43,013 nucleotides of DNA. Origin: Ereboglobus sp. GTDB taxonomy: Bacteria; Verrucomicrobiota; Verrucomicrobiia; Opitutales; Opitutaceae. The position numbers and the translations under genes are program-made. Where the stretch lies: the NCBI GenBank assembly GCA_029974595.1, contig JARKRC010000037.1:1-43013 (forward strand), given 5' to 3'. This document shows positions 32,497 to 32,988 of the stretch, one piece after another. The first letter of the stretch is position 1. Every line of letters begins with the position of its first letter. A model generated the notes under the pieces. That model did no database searches, was not told the origin of the DNA, and worked only from the letters and a program-made list of their open reading frames with translations.

Positions 32497-32536
32497 GGAA
32501 AGGAGTCAGGATGGAAGGAGTCAGGAGTTAGAGGAG
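32497..32536. repeat. Heptamer arm at the 3' side of the four-helix-bundle gene
   Basis: AGGAGTC-type words (AAGGAGTCAGGATGGAAGGA and following, then GGAGTTAGAGGAG) on the plus strand. In gene sense these are CTCCT-type words lying between the four-helix-bundle gene and the nuoG start. They include the stop codon at 32521-32523 and the last codons (GSSNS). They are complementary to the arm at 32924-32955. Confidence 0.85.
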
Positions 32537-32988
32537 CCGGAAGCGGGCACTTCGATGGCCTTGGCGTAGGCGTTTAGCATGCGGCTGACTTCGGCGAGTT
32601 GGGTCATGAGCGGCGTGCTGTCGCCATATTCAAGGTCGCGGGCGAGGATCAGATAATAGCGACACTCTTCGAGCGAACCTTGGGCGATGTTCATGAAACG
32701 GCGTTTGTCGGCCACGCTGTTTTTCTTGTAGCCTTCGGCAATGTTGGCGGGAACCGAAACTGCGGCACGGCGAAATTGCGAGACGAGGGCGTAGAGTTCG
32801 CTTTGTGGAAATGTGCGGGTGAAGCGATACGCGGCTAGAACCCACGCGTGCGCTTTTTGCCAGACGATGAGGTCTTCAAAGGTGCGCGATGGAGCACGCG
32901 AATCAGCGAGTCGGGAGGTTTTTCTCCTGACTCCTGACTCCTGACTCCTGACTCCTTTTTCCGTATTCATCGTCATCGGCATTTCCAT
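32521..32988 (-). CDS. Four-helix-bundle protein (S23 / IVS-encoded family)
   Basis: 155 aa. Residues about 36-145 match the four-helix-bundle family first known from 23S rRNA intervening sequences: TFEDLIVWQKAHAWVLAAYR, FRRAAVSVPANIAEGYKK and SLEECRYYLILARDL are the classic segments. The molecular function of the family is not established; related Avd proteins form pentameric barrels that bind nucleic acid. The first 35 residues (GVRSQESGVRR) are encoded by four CTCCTGA heptamers and are not part of the fold. No internal start follows them, so translation begins at 32988, 32976 or 32970. The last residues are also word-encoded. The gene sits between nuoF and nuoG, where complex I operons normally have nothing, and is bounded on both sides by inverted word arms. 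Confidence 0.88.
   Translation of the reverse strand: MEMPMTMNTEKGVRSQESGVRRKTSRLADSRAPSRTFEDLIVWQKAHAWVLAAYRFTRTFPQSELYALVSQFRRAAVSVPANIAEGYKKNSVADKRRFMNIAQGSLEECRYYLILARDLEYGDSTPLMTQLAEVSRMLNAYAKAIEVPASGSSNS
32924..32955. repeat. CTCCTGA heptamer array inside the four-helix-bundle gene start
   Basis: Four perfect tandem CTCCTGA units (32924-32951) plus CTCC on the plus strand; purine-rich GGAGTCA in gene sense. This is the most regular array in the window. It pairs with 32497-32536 across the four-helix-bundle gene and encodes part of that protein's N-terminus. Confidence 0.9.

Follow-up and report, generated by a model that had tools for sequence, protein, structure and literature searches.

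The nuo operon of Ereboglobus sp., studied here in a stretch of 43,013 nucleotides (the window; assembly GCA_029974595.1, contig JARKRC010000037.1), carries between nuoF and nuoG a small gene enclosed by two inverted arrays of a 7-nt word (Table 1). The gene matches PF05635, the 23S rRNA intervening-sequence protein family (S23 or IVP; E 9.4e-36), and TIGR02436 (E 4.7e-35); the PF05635 domain proper occupies 32569-32877, and the N-terminal extension is encoded by an arm. Apart from PF05635, Pfam gave only a weak match to the Avd-like family PF22296 (E 6e-4), and no transposase or catalytic domain was recognised in the gene. Its score against the Avd profile, 22.7 bits, lies below the curated cut-off of 80, while one cyanobacterial S23 relative matches PF22296 with an E of 8e-8. 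The S23 gene had no match in PADLOC, the window had none in Rfam at the gathering threshold, and a search for S23 in phages with one query returned nothing.

An earlier note, made from the letters alone, had placed an S23 gene between nuoF and nuoG within inverted complementary arms, and this is borne out: 29 of 32 letters are complementary in a gapped alignment of the two arms, and complementarity reaches 94-100% over 12-17 nt. The right arm stands where it was described, with 4.7 perfect CTCCTGA units (32924-32956) and not four; the left arm, in which AAGGAGTCAGGA occurs twice, 15 nt apart, extends over about 32499-32531 and not 32497-32536. With at most two mismatches GGAGTCAGGAGT is found 10 times in the window, six times in these arms, against 1.78 expected, and none of 100 shuffled windows reached 10 matches. 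The arms do overlap the coding ends of the gene, as the note held, one containing the TGA stop and the other being read through as the N-terminal extension. The word GGAGTCA contains no stop codon, and there is no in-frame ATG, GTG or TTG between the upstream arm and the S23 domain.

Table 1. Features of the S23 element, its host genes and the gene-less hairpins in the window
Feature	Position	Strand	Remark
nuoF, upstream host gene	32998..34347	-	named from translation
S23/IVP four-helix-bundle gene, PF05635	32521..32988	-	only gene in the element
Upstream terminal arm, purine-rich GGAGTCA array on coding strand	32923..32958	-	
Downstream terminal arm, inverted relative to upstream arm	~32499..32531	+	holds TGA stop of S23
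Right end of element	32497..32546	+	21-50 nt similar to ten dispersed gene-less copies in own genome
nuoG, downstream host gene	30825..32492	-	named from translation; used as probe
Class-B hairpin (CACGGAGA word, PF13366-type), nuoG-nuoH	30658..30813	-	
Gene-less heptamer hairpin, AATGCGG word, nuoG-nuoH	30682..30772	-	nested in class-B hairpin
Gene-less heptamer hairpin, TTAAGAA word, nuoI-nuoJ	28650..28842	-	
Gene-less remnant, GGAGTYA word as in the element, nuoJ-nuoK	28009..28135	-	
Class-B hairpin, nuoK-nuoL	27537..27685	-	with nested second hairpin

Hairpins or half hairpins are present at other nuo junctions, as the note had also claimed, but mostly with other words, and those at nuoG-nuoH and nuoK-nuoL belong to another word class. 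By eye, the two last are nested structures (30629-30824 and 27504-27702) in which an AATGCGG hairpin and a CGCAGAG hairpin, respectively, lie inside a CACGGAG hairpin; at a further locus (L010) a GGAGTCA hairpin is likewise nested inside a CACGGAG hairpin. Two sister species (G001 and G003) have gene-less hairpins of the GGAGTCA word, similar in their loops, at several consecutive nuo junctions (by eye). The operon also contains, between nuoD and nuoE (35044-36042), a gene with a KilA-N domain and a PADLOC match (E 4.7e-127) to PDC-S22, a candidate defence family, and in G003 a KilA-N gene sits in the loop of the GGAGTCA hairpin between nuoJ and nuoK, a junction that is without KilA-N in G001. 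KilA-N was considered as a third cargo family and rejected, being present in 4 of 57 genomes and having arms at one of five loci, where it is nested in a GGAGTCA hairpin.

PF05635 has nine matches in the genome of the window, seven of them over the cut-off. All seven lie in gene-gene junctions (by reading) and all seven have inverted arms, with arm scores of 15.5-44, where the score is that of the best inverted alignment between the 250-nt flanks. Their words are GGAGTCA, a TTTAAGA type, GATTTAC, AAGTGAA, AAGTAGG, CGATTTT and AAATCCC; words vary between loci, and the two arms within a locus agree, irregular letters included. The pattern GGAGTCAGGAG-n-CTCCGGC has 12 matches at 10 gene-less sites in this genome, none on a contig that carries one of the nine S23 matches, and the reversed pattern has none. 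Aligned with these ten copies, the element end at 32497-32546 scores 18.5-39.5, compared with 11-15 for the best of 200 shuffles, and the copies resemble the end beyond the word itself; since the word served to find the copies, some of this similarity is built in. Their orientation varies, and some lie between genes that diverge or converge. Among 12 gene-less hairpins, five match an S23 arm of their own genome better than any arm of another genome and seven do not, the S23 arms in this comparison being a partial sample. The earlier note had read the locus as an autonomous element with gene-less derivatives elsewhere; the derivatives exist, and autonomy is unproven because no catalytic domain is recognised in the S23 gene. 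A GGAGTCA array also occurs within an open frame of 897 codons (L016, G000:C74 ~3440-3471), which we take to resemble leucyl-tRNA synthetase; the array adds residues and leaves the frame intact.

The association of S23 genes with inverted arms extends well beyond this genome. The enrichment at homologues proposed in the note is found: taking an arm score of at least 14 as threshold (with a right flank of 400 nt for cyanobacterial plasmids), arms are present at 144 of 194 PF05635 loci and at 8 of 286 control positions located in the same loci as the tested genes (pooled Fisher p 1e-67, for loci that are not independent). In the order set 57 of 76 loci have arms, against 2 of 68 control positions; these 76 places, with orthologues kept apart, comprise 7 from the own genome, 29 listed loci and 40 picked high and low in the list. 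The phylum set gives 18 of 26 against 0 of 51, and 11 of 12 against 0 of 24 was obtained for cyanobacterial plasmids (12 of 41 plasmid records). In the other-phyla set, which is the best 80 of 558 candidates and covers named genomes from Bacteroidota, Nitrospirae, deltaproteobacteria, Planctomycetota, SAR324, KSB1, Elusimicrobia and others, arms occur at 58 of 80 loci and 6 of 143 control positions; one locus (L159) is a copy of another (L093) and was counted among the 80 and dropped from later analyses. The phenomenon is more general than the note held, S23 relatives with arms being found in many phyla; within the closer relatives the family is present in 38 of 57 genomes.

Arms taken from different loci reached the threshold in 55, 45 and 196 of 1500 random pairs (order, phylum and other phyla respectively), the last figure being high because that set is a single protein subfamily with one word type. 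The best period among 133 arms is 7 in 76, 8 in 51 and another value in 6. Fifty of the 194 loci score below 14, some of these having a degenerate word and some nothing recognisable by eye (for example L121 and L123), and such arms were excluded from the analyses of words, profiles and mismatches. A common nucleotide profile is weak for period-7 words (information 2.37, against a maximum of 2.11 in 15 column-shuffled controls) and strong for period-8 words (4.76 against 2.32), where many of the proteins are close relatives. The arm begins close behind the preceding gene, at a median of 6 nt from its stop codon (50 loci of the other-phyla set, best 80 of 558). On two cyanobacterial plasmids S23 elements are situated between cas6 and cas4 (L472 and L473).

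Empty junctions, which the note had suggested looking for, are common among relatives. At nuoF-nuoG, resolved in 42 of 45 cases (L043, L050 and L060 being outside these 42) with hairpins scored by eye, seven junctions contain S23 with heptamer arms, nine a gene-less hairpin, 25 are short and empty, and one has two hairpins around another ORF. Gene-less hairpins at this junction mostly have second-class words (by eye), and in one genome (L054, G012) a small ORF lies here between two class-B hairpins. At atpG-atpD, resolved in all 30 cases, three junctions have S23, five a gene-less hairpin and 22 are short and empty. In one relative (G036) an S23 element is found directly before atpG, and the next junction contains a gene-less hairpin with the identical word.

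For the window element itself the evidence of insertion is this comparison of junctions; target duplications come from its plasmid relatives, in which arms and gene were inserted together and the best site has a duplication of 5 bp. Within a lineage of conjugative plasmids of cyanobacteria, T. variabilis and Scytonema carry the element, and Nostoc linckia and Aulosira have backbones without it that are 97.4-97.6% identical to that of T. variabilis. The inserts are 428 and 414 bp long, include both arms and are flanked on each side by GTAAT, a duplication that contains the stop codon of the preceding gene. At the same plasmid site in Nostoc C052 a left arm followed by the 5' portion of the gene is all that is present (by eye). 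Other sites have putative duplications too: one element at a TAG stop codon has TTCT or TTCTA on both sides (by eye), a copy inserted antisense between genes for ribonucleotide reductase is bounded by TTAG at either end (by eye) and is missing from a record 85% identical, and an S23 element with a GGGAAAA word, at a stop/start overlap, has ATG on both sides, which at 3 bases is possibly due to chance. Of seven comparisons of empty with filled sites, two were computed, two were made by eye and three were not clean (the TraM, Aulosira and ABC transporter sites).

The word tends to travel with the S23 protein subfamily, if not strictly. Word similarity and protein identity are correlated over 132 arms (Mantel r 0.41; 0 of 1000 permutations), a correlation that derives largely from the other-phyla subfamily, the order alone giving a Spearman coefficient of 0.12. 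Pairs with the same flanks were treated separately. For pairs without a common neighbour gene the mean word score is 4.3-4.7 in all bins below 50% identity, rising to 6.2 at 50-60%, 8.3 at 60-75% and 17 at 75% or more (n=11 pairs), and the antiparallel control gives 3.1-3.7. Leaving aside two nuoF-nuoG orthologues, the four proteins nearest to the window S23 among 192 others are L068 (identity 0.70), whose word AGGAGCT is related, and three elements at unrelated loci on cyanobacterial plasmids (0.70, 0.69 and 0.67) with words of the GGAGTCA/GAATTCA type; the words of these three score 12.5, 25 and 19 against the window arm, the median for all arms being 5. A counterexample is the pair L143 and L151, whose proteins are 72% identical and whose words are unrelated.

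Genes of the PF13366 family (GxxExxY, PD-(D/E)XK_3) are also linked to such repeats, and the family, present in 39 of 57 relatives, was taken as a comparator. Inverted arms occur at 24 of 30 PF13366 loci (L416-L445) and at 0 of 52 control positions, with 124 of 1500 cross-locus pairs reaching the threshold. Periods of 8-10 fit best in 23 of the 24, whose words include CACGGAGA, CACAGATGAA and CGCAAAGAA. Arm class follows gene family, S23 having words mostly of 7-8 nt and PF13366 words of 8-10 nt, and gene-less hairpins were counted accordingly by class. From genomes with PF13366, 1340 kb yielded 12 second-class hairpins, and 660 kb from genomes lacking it yielded 0 (p 0.012). The note would have been given up had heptamer hairpins been equally frequent where the S23 family is lacking; in the genomes sampled they are rarer there, with 10 in 1200 kb of S23 genomes and 1 in 800 kb of genomes without S23 (one-sided p 0.03, two-sided 0.06). 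The single exception, in G006, has a word known from S23 elements elsewhere, and additional period-8 hairpins number two in S23 genomes and one in genomes without S23. The rules defining the classes were set once most of these data had been inspected, the new data being G036 and G023 only; for these two genomes, which have S23 only, the prediction was set beforehand, and their 400 kb contain two heptamer, one period-8 and no second-class hairpins.

Several known systems share features with these elements. The nearest is the intervening sequence (IVS) in 23S rRNA, which in Coxiella burnetii has an S23p ORF and a 28-bp terminal stem, is excised by RNase III, and has tandem heptamers (GACAGAT) before the S23p start, two or three according to strain (PMC4990558). 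The window element similarly combines an S23p (PF05635) ORF, heptamers and inverted ends able to form a stem; by location it is no IVS, being situated in an operon of protein genes. Unlike the IVS as described within 23S rRNA (PMC4990558), the elements reported here lie between protein genes in many phyla, and they have dispersed gene-less copies, target duplications and locus-specific words. Intergenic 7-nt repeats, some forming hairpins or paired inverted sites, are known from cyanobacteria as STRRs (PMC2670836) and as the GGGNATC repeats of Xanthomonas and heptamers of Nostoc (PMC4692102), their function being called unexplained. S23 elements resemble STRRs in their tandem 7-nt repeats between genes, and differ from the STRRs and Xanthomonas heptamers as published in that the arms are the ends of a gene-bearing element. 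Few repeats are paired in Nostoc PCC 7120 and the Xanthomonas repeats stay at conserved places (PMC4692102); hence, not every published heptamer need be an element end. The TAACTGA repeats of Beggiatoaceae are described in the main text of PMC4679880 with no link to S23, and the terms S23 and four helix are absent from the main texts of PMC2670836, PMC4692102 and PMC4679880. Among titles and the openings of abstracts, with subscription journals sparsely covered, we found no paper that links heptamer arms with S23 genes other than in the Coxiella IVS.

A further parallel is with MITEs and insertion sequences, which share with S23 elements the terminal inverted repeats, the short target duplication and gene-less derivatives with common ends. 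They also share discrete insertion opposite empty sites, as seen for plasmid elements closely related to that of the window. S23 elements are unlike insertion sequences in that no transposase is recognised and in that their ends consist of tandem words differing from copy to copy in one genome. In REP/RAYT systems, small intergenic palindromes are likewise linked to a gene family. Unlike REP sequences (described in PMC3733652) and their RAYT genes, S23 elements have a palindrome with periodic arms that encloses the gene, whose product is a four-helix bundle. S23 has distant sequence similarity to Avd of diversity-generating retroelements but scores under the curated Avd cut-offs.

We conclude that the locus is very probably a small mobile DNA element of ~0.4-0.5 kb, with inverted arrays of a 7-nt word as its ends and S23/IVP as its only gene. 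The unit insertion on plasmids, together with gene-less copies that share the end, indicates a mobile element with MITE-like derivatives. S23 may instead be a passenger or regulate itself, a separate transposase or reverse transcriptase recognising the arms and moving S23 and gene-less copies alike; we regard this as a serious alternative, if a rather less probable one. It would account for the lack of a recognised catalytic domain and for the one heptamer hairpin in G006, a genome without S23. In diversity-generating retroelements Avd assists the reverse transcriptase, and the weak similarity of S23 to PF22296, both in the window and in the cyanobacterial relative, points the same way. Against a mere passenger stand the tendency of word and S23 subfamily to co-occur across phyla, the tracking of gene family by arm class, and the scarcity of heptamer hairpins in the sampled genomes without S23, with the p values given above.

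The arms could instead be an RNA device, the element being an mRNA intervening sequence that RNase III cuts from the operon transcript, with RNA pairing as the selected feature. The protein family and inverted arms are those of the RNase III-excised Coxiella IVS (PMC4990558), and S23 is co-directional with both neighbours at 58 of 61 order, 18 of 19 phylum and 63 of 68 other-phyla (best 80 of 558) resolved loci; a cruder script, which resolved both sides at 12 order and 15 phylum loci, found 8 and 12 co-directional. On cyanobacterial plasmids, in contrast, 8 of 12 loci are co-directional with both neighbours, and three of the 12 (L466, L468 and L471) are antisense to both. Mismatches between arms, with 113 of the G-U type and 140 of the A-C type, have no G-U excess, and we therefore rejected RNA-level pairing as the selected feature, while a role of the RNA itself may remain. 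Strand bias was likewise rejected as proof of an RNA intermediate, given that the gene-less family sits both ways in its own genome, including between divergent and convergent genes; the bias of S23 is more simply explained by a need for read-through expression. Overall, we consider the RNA device a less probable alternative. One further reading makes the arms slippage-prone repeats that came to match by template switching at palindromes and have no relation to the gene; it is largely refuted and very improbable. In most genomes heptanucleotide repeats outnumber all other long simple repeats, and slippage has been put forward as their cause (Mrazek 2007, cited in PMC4679880); arm mismatches also look symmetric, but arms flank S23 genes and rarely the control positions of the same loci, arms and gene insert as a unit, and the word tends to follow the protein.

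Taking the locus as a mobile element, we propose that it inserts tightly between the genes of an operon, with a probable target duplication of a few bases that can take in the stop codon of the preceding gene, and that S23 would mostly be expressed by read-through from the operon. Shorter copies would keep the ends, lose the gene and spread like MITEs. The earlier note saw in S23 the natural candidate for the factor that makes, moves or binds the arms, and we infer that it drives or assists mobility. A solved S23 relative (2gsc) has five chains and is a homopentamer toroid of four-helix bundles (PMC4990558); a five-fold ring facing a word at constant spacing suggests one subunit per word. Such a ring may bind the arm word on single-stranded DNA or on the transcript, hold both ends together and recruit a host or resident enzyme for cutting and joining.

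More tentatively, S23 elements may represent a class of mobile elements without a classical transposase, in which a five-fold ring reads its own heptameric word through a protein-to-word code that drifts, alongside a parallel PD-(D/E)XK (PF13366) class with words of 8-10 nt. Such elements could be the source of many bacterial hairpins of heptamers or longer words, among them rRNA IVSs and some STRRs, and a drifting code, if true, would allow each element to recognise itself and the gene-less copies derived from it. The S23 family and a set of unexplained heptamer repeats are joined here, the repeats at the tested loci being the ends of gene-carrying elements. It is suggested that rRNA IVSs are one of the niches of a general element resident in operons, and that a second, nuclease-like family (PF13366) behaves likewise. 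S23 elements may explain some of the heptamer repeats that have long been noted in bacteria.
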